Virus record (IMG/VR): IMGVR_UViG_3300008216_001513
Coordinates: 1 to 26,757 of that record
Source of the DNA: a virus
Reading direction: 5' to 3' (one strand)
Length of the DNA stretch: 26,757 bases
Shown here piece after piece: positions 2,948 through 19,010 of this stretch. The notes beneath the pieces are model-generated. The model saw only the letters and a program-made list of their open reading frames with translations, had not been told where the DNA came from and searched no databases. A program made the translations under genes and the position numbers. Positions within the stretch are counted from its first letter, which is position 1. The number at the start of each line of letters is the position of its first letter.

Positions 2948-3154
2948 CCTGCTATGCCGTTCATCTATTGGTGTTGTGTAGTTGCTATAGGCCAATTTAA
3001 CTAGGAAATATTTTTCCAACCACCAGTCGACCCTTTCCGTCTTTCCGCCTCACATTACGCAATACCGTTCCTCACACAAAATGTTGAAAAACTGGTCTTT
3101 TCCCCCCGAAAAATGTCCGTGTTTAGCTACAAAATGGCTCTTGAAAATTTTGAA
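2948..3154. other. Non-coding or weakly coding stretch between the convergent units
   Basis: No rightward gene with a ribosome-binding site is visible here. A rightward 60-codon frame at 3113-3295 lacks one and is antisense to a better leftward gene. Leftward, the frame of the 42-aa zinc-ribbon gene stays open for 34 further codons after its stop, to 3050. A 21-codon TTG frame (2997-3062) follows with a GAGGAA site. Because terminase genes begin just to the right, a packaging initiation site (pac or cos) could lie here, but I see no repeat array that shows one. Confidence 0.3.
2997..3062 (-). CDS. Possible cationic micro-peptide, 21 aa
   Basis: Read leftward, a TTG start at 3062-3060 is preceded by GAGGAA with a 5-nt spacer. 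It opens a 21-codon frame beginning MRNVRRKDGKGRL and ending GKIFPS. The peptide has seven Lys/Arg residues and one Asp. It lies downstream of the leftward promoter and zinc-ribbon gene, so it would be co-transcribed. It could also be the tail of a frame-broken longer gene. At this length chance is a serious alternative. Confidence 0.25.
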   Translation of the reverse strand: MRNVRRKDGKGRLVVGKIFPS

Positions 3155-3283
3155 TTAAATAACTGGCACGGTTGCGTCCGCGCGGCGAGCCGGGTCAGAG
3201 CAATCTACTGTGAATCCGCACGCCGGGCAGAAGATTTTGCACTTAATTACTATTACTTTCGCGCGGCAAAGGAAGCAAGTCAT
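3155..3283 (-). CDS. Leftward zinc-ribbon-like micro-protein, 42 aa
   Basis: This is the only well-supported minus-strand gene. ATG (3283-3281) is preceded by AAAGG with a 5-nt spacer. The peptide begins MTCFLCRAKVIVIKC, continues IFCPACGF and ends in a polar tail. Cysteines fall at residues 3, 6, 15, 19, 22 and 28, giving CxxC and CPxCG knuckles typical of a zinc ribbon. The start lies a few bases beyond the U-tract of the leftward terminator at 3295-3331. Expression would therefore need read-through of that terminator from the leftward promoter at 3431-3460. The family is unknown; small phage zinc ribbons often bind nucleic acid or host proteins. No other frame here has a comparable ribosome-binding site or motif. 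Confidence 0.65.
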   Translation of the reverse strand: MTCFLCRAKVIVIKCKIFCPACGFTVDCSDPARRADATVPVI

Positions 3284-3294
3284 AATTACCTTTG

Positions 3295-3331
3295 AAAAAG
3301 GAAGGAAACCTCGTGAGAGAGGCTCCCTTCC
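3295..3331 (-). terminator. Leftward intrinsic terminator / attenuator
   Basis: On the leftward transcript GGAAGGGAGCCUC (3331-3319) pairs with GAGGUUUCCUUCC (3312-3300) over 13 continuous positions including two G-U pairs, with loop UCUCAC, followed by UUUUU (3299-3295). On the plus strand the G-U positions become mismatches, so the structure belongs to the leftward RNA. It stands between the leftward promoter and the 42-aa zinc-ribbon gene, so it is either the 3' end of a small RNA or an attenuator. Confidence 0.85.
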
Positions 3332-3424
3332 CCTTGGTTGTGGGCGAAAACAGAGGGCCAGTTGCCTGACCCCCTGCCGAGGAGGAGTGGTGCGTTAGCA
3401 CCAGAGGGTGTCCAGTAAGGACAC
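3295..3424 (-). ncRNA. Novel structured phage small RNA or leader, about 130 nt
   Basis: A leftward promoter (TTGACA-18-TATAAT) should start transcription near 3424, exactly at the first hairpin. Four hairpins follow. P1 is GUGUCC/GGACAC (3424-3408). P2 is UGGUGC/GCACCA with loop UAAC (3403-3388). P3 is an 11-bp stem with two G-U pairs capped by a GCAA tetraloop (3376-3351). P4 is the 13-bp terminator stem with U-tract. All wobble pairs in P3 and P4 are G-U only when read leftward, which sets the strand. The linker between P2 and P3 reads CUCCUCCUCGG and is complementary to Shine-Dalgarno sequences. I do not recognise a known RNA class. It could be a free small RNA or a cis-acting leader of the zinc-ribbon gene. 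Confidence 0.8.
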
Positions 3425-3430
3425 ACATAC

Positions 3431-3460
3431 ATTATACCACGAGACTTGACCGCTTGTCAA
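3431..3460 (-). promoter_or_regulatory. Leftward consensus sigma-70 promoter
   Basis: Read leftward: TTGACA (3460-3455, 6/6), an 18-nt spacer, then TATAAT (3436-3431, 6/6). The predicted start, about 3424, coincides with the first base of hairpin P1 of the small RNA. The -35 overlaps that of the rightward promoter. Confidence 0.88.
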
Positions 3461-3474
3461 TGGTATGGTATAAT
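3446..3474 (+). promoter_or_regulatory. Rightward sigma-70 promoter for terminase genes
   Basis: TTGACC (3446-3451, 5/6), a 17-nt spacer, then TATAAT (3469-3474, 6/6). The predicted start is about 3481, the A of the TerS ATG. It shares TGGTATAAT with the leftward promoter and with the capsid-operon promoter at 19011-19039. Confidence 0.88.
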
Positions 3475-3480
3475 GTATGC

Positions 3481-3849
3481 ATGAATACACACGGAGGGGC
3501 GAGGCTCGGAGCCGGGCGTCCCAAGAAATCACAAAGCGTTGCAGTTGTAAATAAAAAATTACAGGCTGCTTTTACAGATGGCTTGGAAACAGTAGCCGAG
3601 AACTTCATCGACCTGTTGAACAAGTGCGCGGCTAATGCGATGAGTGAATCGAAGGATGCTGGCGCCGATAGGCGGTTTCTGGTCAAGCTACTTACTGATA
3701 CCGTGAAGATACCAGAAGATGAGAAAACACCTTACTACAAAATGATGCAGCAATGGGTAGCCCCTACACAGGTGAATATCAATGTGGACGGAGAAAGCAA
3801 GGGATATATTGAGGGAGTTGAAACTCGAGTTATCCCCGGAACAGAGTGA
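3481..3849 (+). CDS. terS: Putative terminase small subunit, 122 aa, leaderless mRNA
   Basis: Small terminase subunits recognise the phage DNA packaging site and hand it to the large subunit. The product begins MNTHGGARLGAGRPKKS, the basic GARxGAGRPKK opening common among phage TerS proteins. It has a helical body and a charged C-terminus, and its gene overlaps TerL by 68 bp. I choose ATG 3481. It is the only nearby ATG, and upstream in-frame starts such as TTG 3454 fall inside the promoter. The predicted transcription start is at 3481 itself, so the mRNA has no Shine-Dalgarno leader. The assignment rests on position, size and the N-terminal motif; no structure-level motif proves it. Confidence 0.75.
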   Translation: MNTHGGARLGAGRPKKSQSVAVVNKKLQAAFTDGLETVAENFIDLLNKCAANAMSESKDAGADRRFLVKLLTDTVKIPEDEKTPYYKMMQQWVAPTQVNINVDGESKGYIEGVETRVIPGTE

Positions 3850-5215
3850 CGTATTATTCCAAGGTAGCCGCCTTAAAATAATTGGTGGCGGCGAGGGCGC
3901 AGGAAAATCCTTTCTTGGCGCTCTTACTGGTGTCATACGTGCAATATCTGATGCACACGAGAATAACTACGACGAGAACCTATTATACTGGGTTGTTGGC
4001 GCGGACTTCGAGGACGCCAGAAAAGAACTAGAGTACATACACGAATGGTTAGACGACTTAGGACTGGTGAACAATGCTAAGACTTCCGTATCGACCCATA
4101 GAGACCAGAAGTGCATCCTCACCACCACCATTGGTGTTGTCTTCGAGACTGTATCAGGCTATGACCCAAAGAAGATTGGACGAGAGCAGCCCCAAGGAAT
4201 TATCGGATGCGAGATTAGCCGATGGACTAAGGAAGTCTGGGACAGATGTTATGGACGACTTGCTCGTCGATATCACCGAGGCTCTTGGGGATTCTTTAGT
4301 GGCTCATTTGAAACAAGCGAAGGCTGGTTTCCAGAGATGTGGGAGACAGGCCAATCAGGAAACGAACTAGATGTTACGAGCTTTTCACTTCCTGCATGGG
4401 CTAACCTATCAATATATCCGGGCGGCGAGAATGACGCTGCTATAAATCAGCTTCGGGCGCAGACAACAGAACCGCGCTTCCTAGCCCGGTACGGTGGTCA
4501 GCCGCATCCTCCAATAGACAGCGTGTTTCCAGAGTTCAAGCATGTTGTACATGTCGATTCTGCTGTAGAGTTTGACCCTAACGAGTCAACATACATATTC
4601 ATCGACCCCGGTGACCTAGTATATGCCTGCGAGTTTATACAGTTCATAGGTGATGAAGTCTGGGTAGTAGATGAGCTATACGTATCACACTGGACACATG
4701 AACAGGTAATGCAGGGTGTACAGAACAAGCCAGCATGGAATAACATCAAAGACGGAGTAATGGATATTGCAGGAACACAACATCATATGGGCCTTGGCAG
4801 CGCTTTTGAGGCATGGCACCGAGACACAGGTATCCAGATGTTCGTTAATAAATGGCCTGTTGATGCGGAGCTTGAAAGGCTTCGCTCGGTACTCTCCCTC
4901 AACCCTTCTACTGGACGCCCTAGACTCCGCATTAGCCCAAAGGCTCAAGGATTGATTACAGAGATGGGCGGTGGCGTCGCGCCGGTTGCAGGTATCAACA
5001 GATGGAAGATACGCAACGGCAAGCCCGAACCGCGCAATGACCATGCATGTAAAGCCTTATCCTATGGGTTGTTAGAGAAGTTTGGTACTACAAGAATAGA
5101 CGATAGAACAAGTATGGAATCAACATCCTACTTACGACCCAATAGCGGCGATAGTGTATATGATAGTGTGCTATGGCACAATCGTAAAGGAGTGAATCCG
5201 TGGCAGCCAAGCTAG
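3782..5215 (+). CDS. terL: Terminase large subunit (packaging ATPase-nuclease), 477 aa
   Basis: This is the motor that pumps DNA into the procapsid and cuts the concatemer. The N-terminal ATPase domain has the Walker A loop GGEGAGKS at residues 36-43. A Walker-B-like strand GIIGCEISRW lies at 139-148 with the probable catalytic Glu at 144; the usual Asp before it is Cys here. The C-terminal RNase-H-like nuclease domain shows YIFIDPGD (Asp275), VVDELY (Asp297/Glu298), MDIAG (Asp328) and NDHACKALSYGL (Asp420), the expected acidic set. The length is normal for the family. The gene starts inside the TerS gene with CAGGTG upstream and overlaps the portal gene by 16 bp. Confidence 0.93.
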   Translation: MWTEKARDILRELKLELSPEQSDVLFQGSRLKIIGGGEGAGKSFLGALTGVIRAISDAHENNYDENLLYWVVGADFEDARKELEYIHEWLDDLGLVNNAKTSVSTHRDQKCILTTTIGVVFETVSGYDPKKIGREQPQGIIGCEISRWTKEVWDRCYGRLARRYHRGSWGFFSGSFETSEGWFPEMWETGQSGNELDVTSFSLPAWANLSIYPGGENDAAINQLRAQTTEPRFLARYGGQPHPPIDSVFPEFKHVVHVDSAVEFDPNESTYIFIDPGDLVYACEFIQFIGDEVWVVDELYVSHWTHEQVMQGVQNKPAWNNIKDGVMDIAGTQHHMGLGSAFEAWHRDTGIQMFVNKWPVDAELERLRSVLSLNPSTGRPRLRISPKAQGLITEMGGGVAPVAGINRWKIRNGKPEPRNDHACKALSYGLLEKFGTTRIDDRTSMESTSYLRPNSGDSVYDSVLWHNRKGVNPWQPS

Positions 5216-6921: not shown

Positions 6922-7143
6922 ATGGAAAGAGATATAACAGGACGAGCAGTTCAACAGAGTGCTAAGATTGTAGCTCGTGTTATGGAGCGAGTAACAGAAA
7001 AGGTACCTCTAGGGCCGGGGCAGGTAAAAATGACCCCAGAAGAGTTAAAGAAAGAGGTAGCACGAATGCGCGGTGAGCCATTACTTAGAATGGCTGAGGT
7101 ACTGGGTAATGACGAAATACTAGAAGCACTAAGGAATAGATAA
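6922..7143 (+). CDS. Small helical structural-module protein, 73 aa
   Basis: The gene begins directly after the portal stop (TAA-ATG) and ends in a TAATG overlap with the next gene. The protein starts MERDITGRAVQQSAK and is almost entirely predicted helix, with basic and acidic residues alternating and a central Pro/Gly break (PLGPGQVKM). A helix with the pattern LLRMAEVLGNDEILEAL ends it. I do not recognise a family. Its place between portal and the 1307-aa protein suggests a role in head or ejection-complex assembly, but that is inference. Confidence 0.75.
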   Translation: MERDITGRAVQQSAKIVARVMERVTEKVPLGPGQVKMTPEELKKEVARMRGEPLLRMAEVLGNDEILEALRNR

Positions 7144-10100
7144 TGTTTCATAACTACGAACATCTAAATATACTAGGTAAGGTAGCTTATCATACAGGGC
7201 CGGGCGCAACACATCCGGGGGAACCGGGTGCTTGGACATTCCATGAACCTCATGATTACCAATCTAATCTTGTAAGAGAAGAAGCAATGGCAGGTTGGGA
7301 ACAGCCATTTGCGGTACATCCTGTTACAGGAATGAAACATATGGTAGGCGCGCAAGGTGTATGGAATCCAGAAACTGAACAAGTAGAAACTCAGGCAGGG
7401 CCGTGGACAGTAGCGCGAAAAGACCCAAACAGAATATTCTGGACTCCAGACGAAGGTGTAAATCCAGAATATGAGCAGCAAAATATAGGTGGGCTACCTT
7501 TTGAGGTTGGAGATATATATAGCCAGAACATTCTTCAAGGTGTTGGCACTCCTACATCACAGTCAGCAGCTTATAGGCAGGGACTAATAGAGAATCCATT
7601 ATATGCAGCAGCATTAGAGCTTGGTATTGCAGGTGGTCTGGGCCATAATCCGTGGATTGATATAAGGTCTCTTCCCCAAGCCGCTGCACAAGCAAAGGAC
7701 TTACAAACTAGAGTACAGAATGACCCAAACTTAATAGCAGCACTTAATGCTAAAGCTGCTGCACCCGGAACTACAGGTGGGGCTACAGGCGGTGCTGGCG
7801 TACCTCCTATGCCTACTGGTAGCTCGCCGCAGGCTGATGGTATTATTGGAGGCATGACGCAAGGTGTAGGACAGGGTAGTGATGGCACTGCTGGAAGCTG
7901 GTTGCAGAACTTAGGTATTGCTGCTCCCGGTGCAAACTTAGTTTCGCCTATTACAACTGGTGCTGGATATACAGCGCCTCCTACCAAGACGTCTACCCAG
8001 CCAACAACGGCAGTAGGCGATTGGGAAAGTTTGGGCCTCGGATTTGAAAGTACTCAAGGGGATTTAGGAGGCTTTCAAGACCAATCTTCTACAGACTATC
8101 TACAAAAACTATTTGGAGGGACGATAGCTCCTGACGCTACTGGTACAGAGCAGGCAACTGTGGCACCTGTCCCGAGTGAGGGAGGTACACTAGCCCCTTC
8201 AGATTTAGGAACTCTAGAGCCGTATGCTGCTCCAGTGGCAGGCGTTCCGCCAGTTGCCCATAAACCATTTGAGATAACTGACTATACAAGTACATTAACT
8301 GATGATACTACAGTATCTAGTATGGGTTTTAAGTCAGACGTTGCGGATAAGATATTTAAGTCAAGTACGTGGCAGTACCAAGCACCAACAGCAGGTAAGG
8401 ATTTGGTAGCGCATCCTGATGTTCCGGGCGCTCCTGCTACCCCCGAAGAGATGCGTCTATTCTATGATGAGCTTGGGCAGAGGTCAGATATTAGTAGTAG
8501 TCAGATTGCCATAGCTCTAAAAGATTTTAAGTATAATCCTCAATTATCAAGAGAAGTACAGATAGGAGAAATAGCTGAAAAGTTAGTAGGGGCTGATTGG
8601 TCTTGGGGAATTGAAGGTGCCTATAAGCTTGTTCCCAGACGTACACGAGCGCTTGAAGGTAGTGCTGAGGAAACTGCTGTAGATGTAGCCACAGAGATAC
8701 TAAATCAGATGGCTCCTTCGGGAGCCGCAACAGTCACAGTCACAGGTGCTGGCGCAACCCAATCAATGTCTGCTAGTGGGTCGGCAGATAATTATGGCCC
8801 CAATGAACAAATAGTGAGCGGCCCCAATACTGCTACAGTAGCATCTTCTGACTTGAACTGGGGCCAAATAATGCGAACTCTAGGGACTGAAACCCAGAAT
8901 TTTGCTGACCTGTCTCACAAGATAGGAGGCTTTCCAACTAGCGTAGGGGCATTCCACGGCGGCGCGAATATGGATGCCGCACAGTACAGAGATGTATTAC
9001 ATTTTATGGCTCAGGCATCTATTACATTACCTGCTGGAACAACATGGGAACCTGCCGAATATGGTAAGGATGGTAATATAACAAAGCACACTGTACTAAC
9101 TGTTACTGATGATTTGAAAAAGAATCTAACTCCAGAAGCCCTTCAACAAATTTCGACAGCTCTGGATATGCAGGGGCAGGCAAAAGAAGCCCTACTAAGA
9201 TATGAAGAGGGCGCAGTACAATTTCATAAAGATTTGGCAACTATGACTTGGAAAGAGAAAGAGTTAATAGAAACAAATAACTTTTCAGCATGGGCAAAAG
9301 AGCAAGATGCCTTTTTAAGTAATGCACAGCTTGCTGCCGGGTTTAGCCATCAAAAAGAATTACTCGTAGCGCAAGCTGAAATTGACTACAATGTGTTAGA
9401 GAATGAGCAAGCATTTGATGAGTGGAAGACTGGACAGATAATTTCTTCTGATGAGAGGATAGCAAATCTTAACGCCGCGACCAGTTATAGTACTGCCGCT
9501 ATGGGTGCTACAAGTGACAAGGAGATTGCCGCGCTTCAAGCTGACTCAGCATATTCTATTGCCGAAATGACAACTGGAACGCAAGCTGGAATTGCCGAAA
9601 TGCAGTCTGGAGTTGACGTATGGGCAGCCAAGTTATCTAGCGATACTCAGTGGGCTATCGCGCAATTAAATAGTTCTACTAAAATAGGACTCGAAGGTAC
9701 TTTTGGTCAGAAAGTGTCGCATGATATCGATTTGCTAAATAGGGGACATGACCAGAAAATCTATGAGTTAACGCATTCAAGTAGATTAGAAATGGGGTTA
9801 GAAACTCATAAAGGCAATATTGACCTAGTAAAGATTGAAGCTAATAAATATGCCGAGCTAGAACTAATAGGTAAAAAATATGAGTTAGAAGGGGCGCTCC
9901 AAGTACTCCGTGACTCTGGTGAAATGGATAGGCTTGTTAAGGAAATAGTAAGTAACGAGCTTATTGCAGGGCATACGATAAGTGGTGAAAATGCACGAGC
10001 CGCTGCCGAGATAGCGTCTAAGGCCGCACTTCAAGAAGCGCAGTTATCCGCTATGGCAGCTAACCTATCTACTGAAGCGTTGAATGCGCTTAATCAAATT

Positions 10101-11066
10101 GAAGCCGCAGGATTCCAAGATAGGTTAACTCAGGAAGCCAAGATACTTGCAGACCAGTTATTGGAGACCCAGCGAGGCGAACATGCCCTAGCAGCTATAG
10201 GCGCTACAGGTGTGCAAGACCGGGCGACAATGGTAAAGAAGTTTGAGCTAGAAGACGAACAACTGAGACTGCGTGAAGAACTTCGCGCCCTTCCAACACT
10301 TGATACCGGCTCTTCTATTGAACTTACTCGTCAGGTATCACAGAACTATACTACAACACTAAATAACGCTATAAGCCAAGCAGCTACATCAGGAAATTAT
10401 GATGTAGTTAATGAGGCACTTGCACATGAACTTCCTCCTATGCCTGTAGGAATACAGTGGAGTCGCGATGAGGGCGGATTTAGGATGAGACCGGGTTACG
10501 AAGGCAGGCAGATGGATGCTGATACGAGAGAATGGATATCTACTGCTACCACTGCCTATAAAGCTCGTGACAGAGTTGAGCAGGCTGTGCAGCAGGCTAA
10601 CCTGATTAACATAGAATTACAGGCTAAACGGTTGGACGAAAGCAAGGCGGCAGAGCAGTTTAGAGAGCATATGATGACAGCAGATATAGATAGCGCTGAA
10701 GAGGCTGCCGCCAGACATAAGATGGCAGAGACAGCAGCCCTAGCATCACAGACAAAACTGGAACATTTGCAGATGCTCTTTGGGCTGTTACAAAATCCAA
10801 TACAGCTTGGTATGGCTAAGAGGCATGGACTCTTAGGGCAGATAGAAGCTGTACTAGGCTTTACTATAAATAATGTGCCTTCTGGCCCAGTAGGTGGTGC
10901 CGGTACAGTTCCAACAGTTAATGAATGGCAGACAATGGATTCCGAGGAACAAACATTCAGTCTTGCACTATTTGTAGAACAGGGTGGCTCTCCAGATGAG
11001 TTCTTAAGACTCATTGCAGCAGCAGCTCCAGCACAAATGCAGCAACTTCAGTACGGAGTATTATAA
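7143..11066 (+). CDS. Giant virion protein with hendecad-repeat helix, 1307 aa (putative ejection protein)
   Basis: The N-terminal roughly 130 residues are Trp/Gly/Pro-rich (for example GAWTFHEP). Residues about 195-390 are low-complexity Gly/Ala/Thr/Pro. A folded section follows, and then about 375 residues (675-1050) of nearly unbroken, Ala/Glu/Gln-rich helix. Within that helix, residues 773-849 are seven exact-length 11-residue repeats. The C-terminal part is again helical with a Gly/Pro hinge. No enzyme motif or signal peptide is visible. The position after the portal and before a 2647-aa partner, and the long helices, fit an internal virion protein that is ejected with DNA and lines an envelope-spanning conduit. 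A tape-measure role is an alternative, but no tail-tube genes accompany it. AAGGA at 7130-7134 supports the ATG. Confidence 0.7.
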   Translation: MFHNYEHLNILGKVAYHTGPGATHPGEPGAWTFHEPHDYQSNLVREEAMAGWEQPFAVHPVTGMKHMVGAQGVWNPETEQVETQAGPWTVARKDPNRIFWTPDEGVNPEYEQQNIGGLPFEVGDIYSQNILQGVGTPTSQSAAYRQGLIENPLYAAALELGIAGGLGHNPWIDIRSLPQAAAQAKDLQTRVQNDPNLIAALNAKAAAPGTTGGATGGAGVPPMPTGSSPQADGIIGGMTQGVGQGSDGTAGSWLQNLGIAAPGANLVSPITTGAGYTAPPTKTSTQPTTAVGDWESLGLGFESTQGDLGGFQDQSSTDYLQKLFGGTIAPDATGTEQATVAPVPSEGGTLAPSDLGTLEPYAAPVAGVPPVAHKPFEITDYTSTLTDDTTVSSMGFKSDVADKIFKSSTWQYQAPTAGKDLVAHPDVPGAPATPEEMRLFYDELGQRSDISSSQIAIALKDFKYNPQLSREVQIGEIAEKLVGADWSWGIEGAYKLVPRRTRALEGSAEETAVDVATEILNQMAPSGAATVTVTGAGATQSMSASGSADNYGPNEQIVSGPNTATVASSDLNWGQIMRTLGTETQNFADLSHKIGGFPTSVGAFHGGANMDAAQYRDVLHFMAQASITLPAGTTWEPAEYGKDGNITKHTVLTVTDDLKKNLTPEALQQISTALDMQGQAKEALLRYEEGAVQFHKDLATMTWKEKELIETNNFSAWAKEQDAFLSNAQLAAGFSHQKELLVAQAEIDYNVLENEQAFDEWKTGQIISSDERIANLNAATSYSTAAMGATSDKEIAALQADSAYSIAEMTTGTQAGIAEMQSGVDVWAAKLSSDTQWAIAQLNSSTKIGLEGTFGQKVSHDIDLLNRGHDQKIYELTHSSRLEMGLETHKGNIDLVKIEANKYAELELIGKKYELEGALQVLRDSGEMDRLVKEIVSNELIAGHTISGENARAAAEIASKAALQEAQLSAMAANLSTEALNALNQIEAAGFQDRLTQEAKILADQLLETQRGEHALAAIGATGVQDRATMVKKFELEDEQLRLREELRALPTLDTGSSIELTRQVSQNYTTTLNNAISQAATSGNYDVVNEALAHELPPMPVGIQWSRDEGGFRMRPGYEGRQMDADTREWISTATTAYKARDRVEQAVQQANLINIELQAKRLDESKAAEQFREHMMTADIDSAEEAAARHKMAETAALASQTKLEHLQMLFGLLQNPIQLGMAKRHGLLGQIEAVLGFTINNVPSGPVGGAGTVPTVNEWQTMDSEEQTFSLALFVEQGGSPDEFLRLIAAAAPAQMQQLQYGVL
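9459..9689 (+). repeat. Seven tandem 11-codon repeats in the 1307-aa protein
   Basis: Residues 773-849 divide into seven units of 11 residues with no insertion. The unit-start anchors are IANL, TAAM, IAAL, IAEM, IAEM, AAKL and IAQL: small or branched residue, Ala, polar or Ala, Leu/Met. Small residues (Ser, Thr, Gly, Val) recur at the middle of each unit. An 11-residue period is the hendecad of right-handed coiled coils, and also of lipid-binding 11/3 helices. Confidence 0.85.
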
Positions 11067-14000
11067 ATGGCTCTAATTTCGCAGAGAACAACATTCTCAA
11101 ATAGGTACATGCCTCCGATGCTTCAGACAAAGGAAGAAGAAGACGAAGAGGATATAATAGTAAAGCAGGTAGATTTAGATGCCGGGCGCTTAATGTACGA
11201 ATCTACCAAGGCTGAAAACTTTGCGAGGATGAATACTTCTCAGCCAACACAGTTTAATTTTAATTCAATAAGTTCTGCTAATAGAGGAGTAGCTACTGAG
11301 TTAGGCGACCCAAATATTGAAAAAGATGCTGCTTGGTATGATAAAGTCTTAAAGGTATTAGAGCCTCTTAAGTATCTAGAGATACCTGCTGAACTCGGTA
11401 TGGAACTTGTAGAATGGAAAGCAAAGAAGCTGATTGGTGGTATACCGGGAGTTGATGCTGACGGCGCATGGTGGGGTGAGGGTACTGCACCGCGAGAGAG
11501 TATGCAAGGATGGAAGGCGCTTCTTAAAGATGACCCTAATAGGTCGGGGTGGGATGAGGTTAAGGGGCGTTTAGATGGCTCATTCGAGGCTTTTGATAAT
11601 CGGCCTCTAATGATGCAGTTGGGTCTTGGAGCAGTACAGATAGCAGCTACTATGGGTGCTGGAGCTATTGCAAAAGGTGCAGCCGTTGCAGGAGCTAAAG
11701 GTGGCGCACTTGCAGCAGCAAGGGCAGCACGCGCAGGGGCATATGTTATCGACCCTTGGGAGCTTGTTTACAAGGGTGTAAAAGCTACTAGAATATTCCA
11801 GTATAGCTGGAAGGGAACTAAGGCTGGTATTAAATTAACTAGGTCTCTCTGGGATAATGGACGGTCTACGGTGGATGAGGTATTAGAAGCTGCTAACGTA
11901 CAGATAGACCCAGCTTTACGAGCAGCCTCTCCAACAGAAACCTTGGCAGAGGTAGTGGCTGATGGTGCCGGTATGTGGTCAATAAATACCTTGGAAGATG
12001 CGCTTAGTGCCGCAAGTAAAATCTTAGGTACTAAAGAGGGTATAACTAAAGAAGACCCACAGCTAGTATATGATGTTATAACTGGCTTTGTAAAAGAACA
12101 TGCAGCAAGATTTGAGGAGCATGGCCTACGAGGGATTGCTATTTCAAAGAGGTTCACAGAAAAATTTCATATAGATGTAGATACTACGCTATTTGACCCA
12201 GTAAATGTAAATATACACGAATGGCTAATTAAGGACGTAAACGTATATGGACTAGGCCCGAGGATGTCTAGGGTTCCTAATGTTTTGGATGATAAGGTTG
12301 AAAAGGCATATACTACTCCCGACCCTACCCGGTCTTTTAAGGATGTATCAGAAACAAGAGTCAAACTTCAACAAGAGACTCATGGCGCGCCTATAGAAGG
12401 AGTAGAAGGGGCGGCAATACAGCATAACTATCTATCGCCTGCATTAGAATCTCGTAATACAATACAGAAATTTATAAGAGCTAGATATCTTGCCTCTACA
12501 GATAATTCCTTAGAAATTTCTGAGCGTGTAGCAGCTATTAGAGATGCTACTATACTACAGACTCAAATGTCTATTGGCGCTCGTAAGAATCACTCATTCC
12601 GTGCAGATAAGAAAGCTCTACTTGGAAGTCCCCATGACCCCGATTTAGTTGACCTAAAAAATCATAATAGGCTGCTACATTGGGAAAAAGAAATAACGCC
12701 TAAGACCAAAGCTGAAAAAGCAATGACTCCAGAAGAGTTTGCAAATTATATTACTGAGAGGAAATTTGGGCGCAGAAGTGCTGGACTGGTATTAGCAGAT
12801 GGGGGTGTAACTCAATATCTTGTACAGAAATATGAAGCATCACTTATACAATGGTCTAAGCAAAATAAAGACCTTATACTAAGAAAACTTGAAGAAGCTA
12901 ATAGAACTCTAGATATAACTGACCCTCAACTAGCGGCTCGTGGTGATATGAGTGAGGCTTTCGATGCTGACCCATTATCTTGGATAAGAGATTCTGACCA
13001 GCTATTCACCTTTGATATCACTAAAATGGATAGTAGTATAAATACTTGGTTTAGAAATGATGAAGTGATAGAAGCCTTTACTGATATGGGTAAGGAGGTA
13101 GGTGAAAAAGGTGCTAAGAAAGCTAATAATGCTAGTGCAGAAAGACTTCTAGCGGCAGCCAGAGAAGAATTAGGCCCGGATGGTAAAAAGCTATACAATA
13201 ATCTTCCAACAGATAGCTCGCTTATCAGAAATATATTTGTTGCAAGCGAACTGGCAGCAGGCAAATCACATGTTAATATAGAAAGACAGTTAAAGCATGG
13301 AAATCCTATGACTACGGCAGGATACGATATAGCTATCATGGACTATAATCCAGCAGGTAGTAACTTACATGCTTCAGTAGAATTAGCTAAAGAAGCAGGC
13401 GGCCTACTCCGAAGAGTATACGATGATGTTGAAGAGGGTACTAATATAGATTTTGCCAGACTGATTGATAGACTTGTCAAAGAGTCAGCTAAAACTCCTC
13501 ATGGCGGCTCACAAAGACAGGCTTTTGCTAAAGGACAGGAGCTAGGTGGTGCTGAATATGCATCCTATGTAACTAGGCTCGGACTATCAATGTCCAATAG
13601 TGCCGCAGGTAGAAAAATACTGGAACGCTACTATGATGATAATTTAACAAGTCTTCTAACAGAACTAAGAGGCGGAGTAGATTATCACGACGTTGCAAAA
13701 CTAGACCGTACAAGCGCTTCATGGGACTTTCTTAAAAAGGGAGGCATGGCAGAGAATCTTATAGCACTAGATGCTGTTGTTAAATATGCTCAAGATTTGC
13801 AGCTACAGAAACAGCATCTTAATTTTAAGAAAGGAACGCTGTATAAAAATATAGGTAGTCGCAAAGCAGGTGAATTTGCTGATAAGCCAAATCTCTATAT
13901 AGAAGCTGGCGAGGGCAGTAAGAAAGCTAGAGAAACACTTAGAGGCGCTAGTCCGGGTATACTGAATCGTGCAGGATTCTTTACTGCAAGAGTTAGTGAT

Positions 14001-17000
14001 GAAACAGGGCAAATTGCAAAAGCAGGTGAGACAGGAAGAGTGACAGAGAAAATGGTATGGGCTGGAGACCACGCTAAGACTGCCAAAGGAAAGATATACT
14101 GGGAGGGTAGGCTAGATGTAATCAAGCAGCGACTTATCATGGATAATGATAACTTTGCAGATTGGGATATATCTAGATGGAAAGAATGGGCTGCTGAAAT
14201 ATTTGACCAGCGCGGTCATATAGAAACTGTAGAAGATATGTTTAGGTCTATGGTTAGAAAGAAAGACGGTAGCTGGACATCAAGAGCAGTAGCCCCCTTA
14301 GATGAGGCTCTCCTCAGTTTCGCAGATGACCAGTCATACCACTTACTCGGTCAGTGGGATATGATGTGGGATGGGGTTAAAAACTTTGAGGGAGTAGATG
14401 CTTTCCGAAAGGTTATGCAAATGCAGGCTATGAATCCTCTTTCTAGGGAAGGCAAACAGGGTGGTTGGTCACCGTTTAGGCATACCAAGAGTAATGCTCT
14501 AAAAGAGTTCCAGAAGAATATAAAAACCAGCCATGTGATGAATGGTCTCTGGAGAACTCAAAAGAGAATACCAATGCTGGTTGAAGATGTAACTGGGCAG
14601 GCTCATTACGAAGAGGGTATAGCATACACTAAGCTGGGCCGAAATGAACAGGTTGCTGACCATATAAATAGATTGCCTACGGATAAACTCAGAGAATGGG
14701 CAGCAGAGCCAGATGTATTAACTGTACTAAGAGAAAAAGGCTTACATTCTAATATCTCTCTTGATAAGGCTAAAGAGATTATATTTGGTATTGCACAAGA
14801 TTATCCTAGATTACTAGGTGATGACTTTGCAGGTGAATATGCTAAGCTAGATTTTGCTAGAGGTAAAATGTCACATCCTCTTAACCAGTGGCTGAGGCTA
14901 TTATCTGAAAGAGTATATAATCATAGAAATACTTTTGAAGCTACAATACAGCAGATTGATGGTCATAGACTAAGTGATGATATGCTTCTGCCTCCAAGAC
15001 TGAAGAGCGCACGCGATAAGTCTTTCTACCACGACATAGCCACTGATATGTATGGGAATGGGGCTAAAACAATTGCAGGTAATGAAGCGCCGGGCCGCTT
15101 AGGGGCTATAATATCTACGATGGGTGAGGGGCCGTGGGGTAAGCGTCTTAGTGAATGGGCTAAGAAAGACGTATGGTATGCTAAAACAGCAAAAAATCTT
15201 ATTATGGCACCTGTTAATGTGGCTTTTTATGGCGGTCAGGGTGGACTAGCTCATGCAGCCGTAAAAGCAATATCTGCTAGAGCAGGTGAGTATGATAGAA
15301 TTACTGGTGCCAGTGATAGAGGCAGAAGCACACTCCAAGACCACGGTGAAAGTGCATTAGGCTTAGTAGTTGATGCGCCTAATGCTGCTCACTTAGAAGC
15401 AGCACGGCGTTTAGAAGATGTTCGTGATATCCAAGGTATGGAGCATTTTACTAAACTTGAACTACAGGATACTCCCGAAGGATTAAAAAGAATCAGGGAA
15501 CTTGAGGAATCTGAAGAAGGTATCAGGATGAGCCAGTTATTTGTGACAGGCGCGGCGAAGGGCGGCGGTAAGGGTAAGCCGGCAATATCAACAAAAGCTA
15601 CTCCACTTAAATATGCAGAAGCAAAGTGGAAACAAGAGATGGAACCAACTGGCACAGGAATAGCATCAGATATTAGAAAGCTCTTCCAGACACCAGATAT
15701 GCCGCTTGACCGTATACCCGAAAAGTTCTGGCATATTTACTACAAAGATATGGGTACAACAATATATGTAAATGGACAAGCAAAATTTGTACCGTCAAAG
15801 CTATATAAAGACCTTGTTCTTTACAGGGCTACAATAGATGAGATTGAATATCAGCAGCGCCTTAATGGTATTGACCCTGCTAAAGAATCTGCTGATAGAG
15901 GTGGCAGATATAATCCAGAAGCACATGCCCCTAGAATTTATCAGATGCTGGGGGAGGCAGGAGAAACGTCAAGAGACTACTTAGAAAGCGGTCATACTAA
16001 ACACTTTAGGCCAAGGATTGAAGAGGATATAATTGATATTTACCATGCGTATACGGTGGGAGGCGGTACAGACGCACTTAGAGGTATAGCTGACCGTATA
16101 GCGATATACAGCGACTCAGGACGAAAGTCTATTATTGATAAGCAGGCACAGCAATGGATTAGAGGACAGGCTTACACAAAAGAAGCCTATAGTATATTCG
16201 CTAAGAGAGCGGCTACTAGAGCAGGTCTAAAAGGGCTAAGGGAACTTGTGAATGAGCGCAAAGGTATGCGTACCCCAGATGGGAGTTATATACAGACCGA
16301 GGGCAGTGGTTCTTCTATAGAGGCGCTAAACAAATGGGCTAAGCAAGACCCAGACCTTGATATGTTCGGGCTTAAAATAAATGACTTTCTAGATGGCAGC
16401 TATAGGTCAAATGAGTTCTGGCATACTAATGCAGACAAGTTATTAGACCAAATAGATTCTAAATTAGGCCAGCTTGATACGTCTCTTGCAGGTAGGCATA
16501 GCTTATTAGGGCAGCTTAACATTGATTGGATAAGAGGTACACACCTATCTTCGTTAAGTAATCGTGAGCAGAAAATGGTCAAGCAGTATCTGGTAAAGAC
16601 TACAAATATCTTTACAGCAGTGCCAAAGATAGCTGCTGATACGTTTAGTACGCCTAACCGTCTTATGAGATACTTTAAGTCTGGAATAGATATTGGCGCC
16701 CCAATGATTCATGGATGGAACGCGCTCATAAGAACTACTACAGGTGATAAGAAGGCTGCACAGGCTTGGTACAAAGGAACTAAGATGATGGGCCAGATGT
16801 GGCTAGACCCTAAAATGTATCATAAATATCAAGCAGAAAACATAGGAGTACTTAATGAGGCTTCTGGCCTTGGTGGGGTTAGGCTATCACAGCCTGAGCC
16901 GTTATGGGCCGCGGATGACAAGGCAGTTCTATTCTTAAAACAAAATTCAAAAAAAATAGCAAAGACATTAGGTATTCCAGAGACCGCAGTTCTTGGTAGG

Positions 17001-19010
17001 TTTGAGGACAGCTTCTCTGGTTTTCTAGATGTTCTAAGGTCTGAACTCTGGCAGTCTATGAAAATGTCTGTAGATGATGAGATTTTAACGCTGCGTACTG
17101 CTGCTGGTAAAGCTGGTAAGAATTTTGATGCTGCGGATATAACAAATAAGAAGTATCGTGAGTTAGGTTCAGTTATAAATAAGATGACTGGAGCCTTTGA
17201 CCCACACATGGTAAGGCAAACACCGTTACAGGCACACTTAGAAAGTACACTAATATTCTTTGCCCCAATGTACAGGCGTGCTACTTACAGTATCATGGGA
17301 GACCTATTCAGATTCAAGTCTAAGGACGGTTCTGGCGGCATGACCAGCATGAGACAGAGGGCTGCCTTTAGGCAGATGACAGCCTTGGTAACGGCTGGAG
17401 CTATGATGCAGCAGTTAGCTGTATGGACAGGTAACGGTCGGGGGGATATGTTTGAAGACGGTGAGATTACCGGGGCAGACGATGCACTTGACCTTACATC
17501 TAGATTTGGTAAGATGCATATTGCAGGAGCGCAAATAGGCTTTGGTGGTGCATGGTTCTCGGCATTTAGACTAGCCAGTGATTTAGCGATGAACTTAACA
17601 CATAGTGATAAGAACCAAGCTGAGGATAAACACTGGTCTGAGAGTTGGGTATTTGACCTTCTTCAGAGAAGAGGTAGGTCGCAATCGGCTCCTATAATGG
17701 GGCTTTTTACTGACGTTATTGCAGGACGTACATTCTTAGGAGAACCGCTACGAGATGATGACGGCTGGGATACAAGTAAGATTCTACTACATGGTGGGAG
17801 GAATATGGTTCCTTTCTGGCTAGATGGCGCCTTTGCCGGGCCATTTAAGGCAGCACCAGTAATGATGGCTGGAGAGTTTATGGGGCTGTCATCTTATGAG
17901 ATTAGCTTATACGATAGACTATCGGCTGCTAGACAGGGAGCCTTAGCAAATTCTGACCTTGGGCCTGTAAAACAGTACCGAGATGAAGTACGCAAGGCTG
18001 GCGGAAAGTTATACTTTCGGACGGCACCATCTACACTTCAAAAATATATTAACAATAGTGTTCCAGAAGTTCACCTACTGGCAGAAGAGTTTGATAAGGA
18101 GTATGGAATTACAGTCTCTGGTGACGCTAGAGAAATGCGTGAATACTACAAAGAGAAACATGCCTTTGACCTTATACAGGTACAGGAGTTAGCTCTTGTT
18201 TCACAGGGGTATGAAGAGGGCAGGATGGATATGGATGGTGTAGGAAAAGCATATTCTTTCGCTGCAAAAGCTAGAAGGCAGCGAAATCAGGAACTGCTAG
18301 AGAAATATACAGGCGTAGAAGCGCACTTTAGCGACTTGCGTAATGCACAGAATGATGAAGACTGGCATGGATTTCAAGGAGACCTATACTACTATCAATT
18401 GCAGGCTACCAAAAATGATAAGATATTTGAGAGGGATGATGGGACTTGGGACTTTGAACGGTCTAATTGGGCTGAACAGGGATGGTGGCAAGCTAATCCA
18501 GAAGCAGCACCTTTTAGAGACTATATAACAAATAAAGAAAGGAATTGGTTTAAGTCGCTACCAGTAATACAGCGATATGTAGAAGGCATAACGGCAATAC
18601 AGGACTCTCAGTACTTTGATATGCATGAGGTAATATATAAGCAGGGAAGCAAAGAACGAATTATGGCTATAGAAATGAAAGATATATCTTCAGATTATAA
18701 AGATACACTAGTACAGGCATATCCTGATACATATGGGAAAGTTTGGAAAGAATTAAAAGAAGCAAGGGAAGAGATGTTAAAAAGAAATCCGATACTAGAT
18801 GCGTGGATAGTAGAGATTTTAGGTAACAACCCCAAGAATATTGTTAACATAAGAGCTAATCTAAAAGAGAGACTACTATTCAATAGAAGGTATGGACTTG
18901 CTAACACGCCCCATAAAGATAGATTTACAATAAGCGCTACAGGAGACATACTAGTAGCAAGTAGAGAAGGTAATGAAAATCCATATGTACCTACACGCCC
19001 TTCCTACTAA
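11067..19010 (+). CDS. Giant phage protein, 2647 aa (large internal virion / polyvalent-type protein)
   Basis: This is the largest gene, taking about 30 percent of the window. It opens with an acidic tail (KEEEDEED near residue 22). A hydrophobic Ala/Gly stretch follows at about 180-215 (LGAVQIAATMGAGAIAKGAA), possibly membrane-interacting. A very long, mostly helical, charged middle section has no motif I recognise. From about residue 2035 the pattern resembles the conserved C-terminal part of giant phage polyvalent or internal proteins: INKMTGAF, then LIFFAPMYRRA, a hydrophobic helix, SRFGKMHIAGAQIG, and VIAGRTFLGEPL near 2215. That resemblance is from memory. I looked for single-subunit RNA polymerase motifs and did not find a set. 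The likely role is as an ejected virion protein carrying unknown activities. GGAG precedes the ATG. Confidence 0.75.
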   Translation: MALISQRTTFSNRYMPPMLQTKEEEDEEDIIVKQVDLDAGRLMYESTKAENFARMNTSQPTQFNFNSISSANRGVATELGDPNIEKDAAWYDKVLKVLEPLKYLEIPAELGMELVEWKAKKLIGGIPGVDADGAWWGEGTAPRESMQGWKALLKDDPNRSGWDEVKGRLDGSFEAFDNRPLMMQLGLGAVQIAATMGAGAIAKGAAVAGAKGGALAAARAARAGAYVIDPWELVYKGVKATRIFQYSWKGTKAGIKLTRSLWDNGRSTVDEVLEAANVQIDPALRAASPTETLAEVVADGAGMWSINTLEDALSAASKILGTKEGITKEDPQLVYDVITGFVKEHAARFEEHGLRGIAISKRFTEKFHIDVDTTLFDPVNVNIHEWLIKDVNVYGLGPRMSRVPNVLDDKVEKAYTTPDPTRSFKDVSETRVKLQQETHGAPIEGVEGAAIQHNYLSPALESRNTIQKFIRARYLASTDNSLEISERVAAIRDATILQTQMSIGARKNHSFRADKKALLGSPHDPDLVDLKNHNRLLHWEKEITPKTKAEKAMTPEEFANYITERKFGRRSAGLVLADGGVTQYLVQKYEASLIQWSKQNKDLILRKLEEANRTLDITDPQLAARGDMSEAFDADPLSWIRDSDQLFTFDITKMDSSINTWFRNDEVIEAFTDMGKEVGEKGAKKANNASAERLLAAAREELGPDGKKLYNNLPTDSSLIRNIFVASELAAGKSHVNIERQLKHGNPMTTAGYDIAIMDYNPAGSNLHASVELAKEAGGLLRRVYDDVEEGTNIDFARLIDRLVKESAKTPHGGSQRQAFAKGQELGGAEYASYVTRLGLSMSNSAAGRKILERYYDDNLTSLLTELRGGVDYHDVAKLDRTSASWDFLKKGGMAENLIALDAVVKYAQDLQLQKQHLNFKKGTLYKNIGSRKAGEFADKPNLYIEAGEGSKKARETLRGASPGILNRAGFFTARVSDETGQIAKAGETGRVTEKMVWAGDHAKTAKGKIYWEGRLDVIKQRLIMDNDNFADWDISRWKEWAAEIFDQRGHIETVEDMFRSMVRKKDGSWTSRAVAPLDEALLSFADDQSYHLLGQWDMMWDGVKNFEGVDAFRKVMQMQAMNPLSREGKQGGWSPFRHTKSNALKEFQKNIKTSHVMNGLWRTQKRIPMLVEDVTGQAHYEEGIAYTKLGRNEQVADHINRLPTDKLREWAAEPDVLTVLREKGLHSNISLDKAKEIIFGIAQDYPRLLGDDFAGEYAKLDFARGKMSHPLNQWLRLLSERVYNHRNTFEATIQQIDGHRLSDDMLLPPRLKSARDKSFYHDIATDMYGNGAKTIAGNEAPGRLGAIISTMGEGPWGKRLSEWAKKDVWYAKTAKNLIMAPVNVAFYGGQGGLAHAAVKAISARAGEYDRITGASDRGRSTLQDHGESALGLVVDAPNAAHLEAARRLEDVRDIQGMEHFTKLELQDTPEGLKRIRELEESEEGIRMSQLFVTGAAKGGGKGKPAISTKATPLKYAEAKWKQEMEPTGTGIASDIRKLFQTPDMPLDRIPEKFWHIYYKDMGTTIYVNGQAKFVPSKLYKDLVLYRATIDEIEYQQRLNGIDPAKESADRGGRYNPEAHAPRIYQMLGEAGETSRDYLESGHTKHFRPRIEEDIIDIYHAYTVGGGTDALRGIADRIAIYSDSGRKSIIDKQAQQWIRGQAYTKEAYSIFAKRAATRAGLKGLRELVNERKGMRTPDGSYIQTEGSGSSIEALNKWAKQDPDLDMFGLKINDFLDGSYRSNEFWHTNADKLLDQIDSKLGQLDTSLAGRHSLLGQLNIDWIRGTHLSSLSNREQKMVKQYLVKTTNIFTAVPKIAADTFSTPNRLMRYFKSGIDIGAPMIHGWNALIRTTTGDKKAAQAWYKGTKMMGQMWLDPKMYHKYQAENIGVLNEASGLGGVRLSQPEPLWAADDKAVLFLKQNSKKIAKTLGIPETAVLGRFEDSFSGFLDVLRSELWQSMKMSVDDEILTLRTAAGKAGKNFDAADITNKKYRELGSVINKMTGAFDPHMVRQTPLQAHLESTLIFFAPMYRRATYSIMGDLFRFKSKDGSGGMTSMRQRAAFRQMTALVTAGAMMQQLAVWTGNGRGDMFEDGEITGADDALDLTSRFGKMHIAGAQIGFGGAWFSAFRLASDLAMNLTHSDKNQAEDKHWSESWVFDLLQRRGRSQSAPIMGLFTDVIAGRTFLGEPLRDDDGWDTSKILLHGGRNMVPFWLDGAFAGPFKAAPVMMAGEFMGLSSYEISLYDRLSAARQGALANSDLGPVKQYRDEVRKAGGKLYFRTAPSTLQKYINNSVPEVHLLAEEFDKEYGITVSGDAREMREYYKEKHAFDLIQVQELALVSQGYEEGRMDMDGVGKAYSFAAKARRQRNQELLEKYTGVEAHFSDLRNAQNDEDWHGFQGDLYYYQLQATKNDKIFERDDGTWDFERSNWAEQGWWQANPEAAPFRDYITNKERNWFKSLPVIQRYVEGITAIQDSQYFDMHEVIYKQGSKERIMAIEMKDISSDYKDTLVQAYPDTYGKVWKELKEAREEMLKRNPILDAWIVEILGNNPKNIVNIRANLKERLLFNRRYGLANTPHKDRFTISATGDILVASREGNENPYVPTRPSY

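Follow-up and report, generated by a model that had tools for sequence, protein, structure and literature searches.

A conserved structured RNA with an unpaired anti-Shine-Dalgarno segment beside the terminase genes of an uncultured phage group

Introduction

Comparative structural evidence is rare among phage RNAs. The small RNAs (sRNAs) described in phages come mostly from temperate phages of laboratory enterobacteria, which is in line with a review of the subject (PMC12197685).

Two groups of bacterial sRNAs and two phage RNAs are the described systems closest to the RNA reported here. Yfr1 of the cyanobacteria is an RNA of 54–69 nt with two hairpins and an unpaired, ultraconserved ACUCCUCACAC, found mostly upstream of guaB; its stem-loops flank an unpaired stretch of 16–20 nt, and the 3′ stem-loop is the terminator (PMC2190773, PMC6778093). 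The alpha-r14/NfeR1/‘cuckoo’ sRNAs carry the ultraconserved anti-Shine-Dalgarno (anti-SD) motif CCUCCUCCC unpaired in each of three hairpins (PMC10746234). The c4 antisense RNA of phages P1 and P7 targets the ant mRNA, with the complementary sequences probably located in RNA loops (PMC12197685), and the prohead RNA (pRNA) of phi29 is characterized by a three-way junction, interlocking complementary loops and self-assembly (PMC5340915).

The RNA described here lies in an IMG/VR virus fragment of 26,757 nt, the whole of which is called the window below. The original prediction, made from the letters of the window, had proposed a leftward RNA of four hairpins beside the terminase genes, with a promoter and a terminator of its own.

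Relatives and Distribution

With the large terminase subunit (TerL) of the window as the query, 15 relatives were found. The region upstream of the small terminase gene (terS) is covered in 12 distinct loci, the window included, which amount to 10 distinct RNA sequences. The sRNA promoter and three hairpins are kept in all of these loci, and the RNA always adjoins terS/terL. Three more distant phages, whose TerL is 38–45% identical, have retained the terS promoter in at least two cases; the sRNA promoter is absent from them, and the covariance model of the RNA, R1, finds no RNA upstream of their terS. Because the RNA is present in 12/12 loci and missing from these distant TerL relatives, it seems to belong to the core of a single genus-like group of uncultured phages.

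Searches beyond TerL gave the same distribution. When 2.9 million viral contigs were scanned for the exact pattern of the second hairpin and the invariant segment behind it (the seed), the matches were confined to this phage group; neither a wider profile search nor a portal search brought up a new group, and the phage records contained no nucleotide match to the region. Among genome contigs the exact pattern had a single match, in an Acidimicrobiales MAG, which we regard as chance since it lies inside a reading frame and scores only 11 bits with R1. A relaxed pattern of the seed and the third hairpin gave extra matches in viral contigs, which lack the second hairpin, are mostly coding and also look like chance. 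As to the host, the similarities of TerL, DNA polymerase and MCP are all distant and divide between actinophages, phages of filamentous cyanobacteria and pseudomonad phages.

Table 1. Features of the RNA locus in the window (positions are those of the window).
Feature	Position	Strand	Remark
Conserved core RNA (H1, H2, single-stranded seed, H3, U-rich tail)	3345..3424	-	R1 match, 77 bits
Hairpin H1, at the predicted +1	3408..3424	-	inner pairs covary
Hairpin H2, GGUGC-NNNN-GCACC	3389..3402	-	stem invariant
Invariant 13-nt segment ACUCCUCCUCGGC, seed of anti-SD type	3376..3388	-	identical in 12/12
Hairpin H3, 11 bp, GCAA loop	3351..3376	-	compensatory AU/GC, GC/UA, GC/CG
Hairpin H4 with U-run, terminator-like, accessory	3296..3335	-	absent in 6/12 loci
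Small ORF behind H4 (42 aa; zinc-ribbon type, CxxC...CPxCG)	3155..3283	-	optional, in some relatives
-35 element TTGACA of the sRNA promoter	3455..3460	-	present in 12/12 loci
-10 element TATAAT of the sRNA promoter, extended TG (TGG)	3431..3436	-	12/12 consensus with the -35
Terminase operon promoter TTGACC-17-TATAAT, divergent	3446..3474	+	overlaps the sRNA promoter
Probable small terminase subunit	3481..3849	+	by position; relatives 52–56% identical
Large terminase subunit	3782..5215	+	phrog_2, E = 8e-18

Structure and Strand of the RNA

The conserved RNA is about 80–90 nt long and consists of H1, H2, ACUCCUCCUCGGC and H3, followed by GUUU. The 130 nt of the window that include H4 fold on the leftward strand at -67 kcal/mol (z = -7.3), with 0 of 200 shuffles as stable, and on the + strand at -52.6 kcal/mol (z = -2.6). 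The original prediction had named, among other checks, a covariance model built from homologues and compensatory changes in the homologous stems, and both of these speak for the RNA. All 12 loci score 77–109 bits with the three-hairpin model; across the 10 distinct sequences, standard pairs are formed in 210 of the 210 cells, and six pairs have compensatory changes in which both sides are altered. The covariation score of 0.352 is reached by 0 of 500 shuffles (0.200 ± 0.020), and in a partner-sliding control the pairing falls to 36–51%. One pair of H1 is seen as U-A, C-G, A-U and G-C among the homologues, although a model-guided alignment, which is biased towards the structure, served for counting the covariation of H1 because MAFFT misaligned this hairpin; the covariation of H3 is visible in the unguided MAFFT alignment too.

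The same cells settle the strand. G-U pairs had been proposed to mark the leftward strand as the transcribed one, and the homologues bear this out with 23 G-U pairs and 0 A-C among the 210 cells, all 23 of which become mismatches in the rightward reading. With every pair formed, six pairs compensated and 23 G-U against 0 A-C, both the structure and its strand are real, and the sequence comparison makes a conserved structured RNA on the leftward strand nearly certain. Nor does it fall into a recognized class, as had been claimed: no family of Rfam 15 matches at the gathering score, the best sub-threshold match (E = 0.046; 22.9 bits versus a cut-off of 47) covers only the terminator-like stem of H4, and a tRNA or tmRNA identity was looked for and not found. 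Covariation thus backs the central claim, that this is an unrecognized structured RNA which has a promoter and a terminator of its own.

The predicted parts of this RNA are not equally conserved. H3 is present as described, an 11-bp stem capped by GCAA. All four proposed hairpins are found in the window, but only H1–H3 belong to the conserved RNA; H4 is shared with L002, L005, L007, L010 and L011 and missing in the other six loci. The 13-bp stem and the U5 attributed to H4 are there as well, although RNAfold also pairs the U-run and so extends the stem to 17 bp. The tail of H3 reads UUUCUU or UUUAUU in the loci without H4, and UUUUCG or UUUCUG in those with it. In view of the better U-tract where H4 is missing and the weaker one where it is present, the simplest reading is that H3 may be the ancestral terminator, and that H4 would have replaced it in this role as the RNA acquired a small gene behind it. 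A simple terminator scan flagged neither H3 nor H4; the terminator reading comes from inspection of the sequence and from comparing the relatives.

Behind the RNA, the six loci with H4 carry a small CxxC ORF with an SD (peptide of 34–42 aa, CxxC...CxxCG), L004 has a membrane-like ORF of 59 aa instead, L013 has only a very short ORF, and L006, L008, L009 and L012 have kept the RNA with no downstream ORF. This slot, in other words, holds differing small ORFs or nothing among the relatives. The core RNA stands alone, since it persists in phages without an ORF behind it. Further to the left, at about 3065–3155 of the window, there is a conserved block, TTCAAAATTT...GGGGAAAAG...TTCAANATTTTGTGTGAGG, a candidate cos/pac site or origin. 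The distant relative L054 has a TTCAAAATTTGACGGGAGG version of this block upstream of terS, and L052 has a partial version. Positions 1–1700 of L054, also upstream of terS, contain many short, closely spaced inverted repeats, such as CCCTAAAGGG-type hairpins, and L052 contains many GGCCTTGTGAGGCC-like repeats.

Two Overlapping Promoters

The leftward promoter, TTGACA-18-TGGTATAAT, is of the sigma-70 type, agrees 12/12 with the consensus and outranks all others in the first 7 kb. Its conservation in 12/12 loci supports the claim that the RNA has a promoter of its own. Since the -10 element ends at 3431, the predicted start (+7 from the -10) is 3424, the first G of H1, so that the leftward RNA would begin exactly on its first hairpin, just as had been proposed.

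The divergent promoter serves the terminase operon. The TerS-like protein has no Pfam or PHROG match and owes its name to its position. In the window, the ATG of terS lies 6 nt past the -10, and it is close behind the -10 in the relatives too; the terS mRNA is therefore predicted to be leaderless. At other late promoters (window 19034, G001 15210) the start codons are about 4–6 nt past the -10. Between the portal and capsid genes lie two giant late ORFs, 7143–11066 (1307 aa), for which a Pfam search gave no match, and 11067–19010 (2647 aa). The -35 elements of the sRNA and terS promoters share five bases (TTGTCA/TTGACA) in nine of the 12 loci, and in the group of the window, where the -10s are 33 apart versus 40–41 elsewhere, the promoters still interlock. 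Two polymerases should not fit on overlapping promoters together, and this geometry suggests that the sRNA and the late operon are expressed reciprocally.

The Anti-SD Seed and Its Candidate Targets

The first ten bases of the invariant segment, ACUCCUCCUC, are predicted to be unpaired in every member (P = 0.91–1.0), and the 13 nt have remained unchanged in 12/12 loci while the neighboring TerS-like protein is only 52–56% identical to most relatives. SD sequences of the GAGGAGGAG type are complementary to this segment. In the four longer relatives that were searched, perfect 10-nt matches, CGAGGAGGAG, are located at the SD of a RepA-like ATPase gene (G001, G004), and the SD of a second ATPase gene has CGAGGAGGA in three of the four (G001, G002, G004); both gene names come from reading the translations, not from a family search. 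None of the target sites is kept perfectly in all of the phages.

A post hoc comparison of 36 ortholog clusters gave seed-binding energies of -11.6 kcal/mol for the replication-arm SDs versus -9.1 kcal/mol for the late SDs (p = 0.011). Among 300 flank-shuffled seeds, nine were as low on the replication-arm energy and 16 reached the gap between the two arms. It is worth noting that the complementarity follows any good SD: the early/late difference recurs, in nearly equal but weaker form, with the 16S anti-SD (p = 0.05), so the data support pairing with SDs and only hint at a preference for early genes; a better fit of the seed to replication-arm than to late SDs has modest support.

Comparison with Known RNAs

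In its architecture the RNA resembles Yfr1, where hairpins at the two ends, the 3′ one a terminator, likewise expose an unpaired, C/U-rich, ultraconserved motif that pairs with mRNAs, and the first 7 nt of the two motifs, ACUCCUC, are identical. The agreement, however, is limited to these 7 nt, as the phage segment is ACUCCUCCUCGGC in 12/12 loci; the phage RNA has three stem-loops in about 80–90 nt and about 9–12 nt unpaired between H2 and H3, and it is found on phage contigs beside terS. With the alpha-r14 sRNAs, which are antisense to many mRNAs, it shares an ultraconserved, unpaired anti-SD motif, but it has one copy of CUCCUCCUC, which lies between hairpins, and is carried by a phage rather than a rhizobium. 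The c4 RNA is also a structured phage RNA, one that blocks the ribosome-binding site of a phage gene; here, the seed sits between the hairpins, and Rfam provides no match. The best explanation of these likenesses and differences is an RNA that would work like Yfr1 and alpha-r14 and is a member of neither.

Proposed Function and Alternatives

The RNA has the general traits of a trans-acting antisense sRNA: a stand-alone gene with its own promoter and terminator, a structured product and an unpaired, conserved seed. Of the roles that the original prediction had offered, this one is favored, both by the RNA being kept where no ORF follows and by the invariant unpaired anti-SD segment, and we lean towards a phage RNA that would act in trans as an anti-SD antisense RNA. 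It thus probably serves the virus in regulating protein production rather than in the packaging motor. The latter role, by analogy with phi29 pRNA, would have the RNA working in the motor and hence encoded beside the terminase, and a small phage RNA next to packaging genes in 12/12 loci is indeed what it predicts. However, the consensus hairpins stand in a linear row with no three-way junction, the loops of H1, H2 and H3 (e.g., UUACU, UAAC, GCAA; UUAAUU, GAAA, GAGA) have no conserved mutual complementarity, a conventional TerL (phrog_2) and a TerS-like gene take the place of a gp16-type motor, and the distant TerL relatives have no such RNA upstream of terS, which together make the packaging role extremely improbable. 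It is also very unlikely that the inverted repeats act purely as promoter or operator DNA, the RNA being a by-product of a divergent promoter that interferes with terS: the overlap of the promoters has been retained despite the shift in spacing from 40–41 to 33, yet the G-U pairs and compensatory changes past +1 are constraints at the level of RNA.

More has to be said for a leader or attenuator acting in cis, through which the RNA would govern read-through past H3/H4 into the small zinc-ribbon or membrane-protein gene. The ORFs behind the RNA in six loci and in L004 are as this idea would have them, and the U-tract of H3 is weakened in 6/6 loci with H4 (TTTTCG or TTTCTG versus TTTCTT/TTTATT). 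A pure leader is nevertheless disfavored, since no ORF follows the RNA in at least four relatives and only a very short one does in L013; moreover, the invariant segment precedes H3, and the SDs downstream offer it no conserved partner. We consider the leader improbable. Binding of a phage or host protein by the segment, or by the H2 stem together with it, as a decoy or a scaffold, is rather unlikely as well. The invariant segment would suit a protein equally well, and the H2 stem and the seed are unchanged in the 12 loci even though the structure of H2 would permit covariation; but a plain complement of the SD accounts for the segment with no protein involved, and no Rfam family was matched.

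For the trans-acting antisense RNA, the following mechanism may be proposed. The host sigma-70 RNA polymerase would start the RNA at 3424 and release it at H4 in the phages that have this hairpin and otherwise at the U-rich tail of H3. The terminal hairpins would stabilize the RNA and keep ACUCCUCCUCGGC single-stranded, so that it could pair with purine-rich SDs of the GAGGAGG type in replication-arm phage mRNAs, host mRNAs or both, and the paired SDs would be blocked for ribosome loading. Through the overlapping terS promoter, the output of the sRNA would fall upon transcription of the late operon, or the reverse. A bolder version, in which the RNA would be a global translation switch, is distinctly doubtful: masking of early phage and host SDs would silence translation that depends on them, while mRNAs from terS and some other late promoters, predicted to be leaderless, would need no SD and escape. 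In that case, the two states would be linked through the overlap of the promoters.

Significance

Our verdict is that the RNA is real and represents a new family whose functional kind is known and whose setting is new: an anti-SD seed of the type best known from bacterial regulators occurs here in a phage RNA that has no Rfam family. The covariance model R1 makes this RNA directly searchable in metatranscriptomes. If the proposed mechanism is true, a single phage sRNA, wired by its promoter to the late operon, would steer translation in the course of infection.
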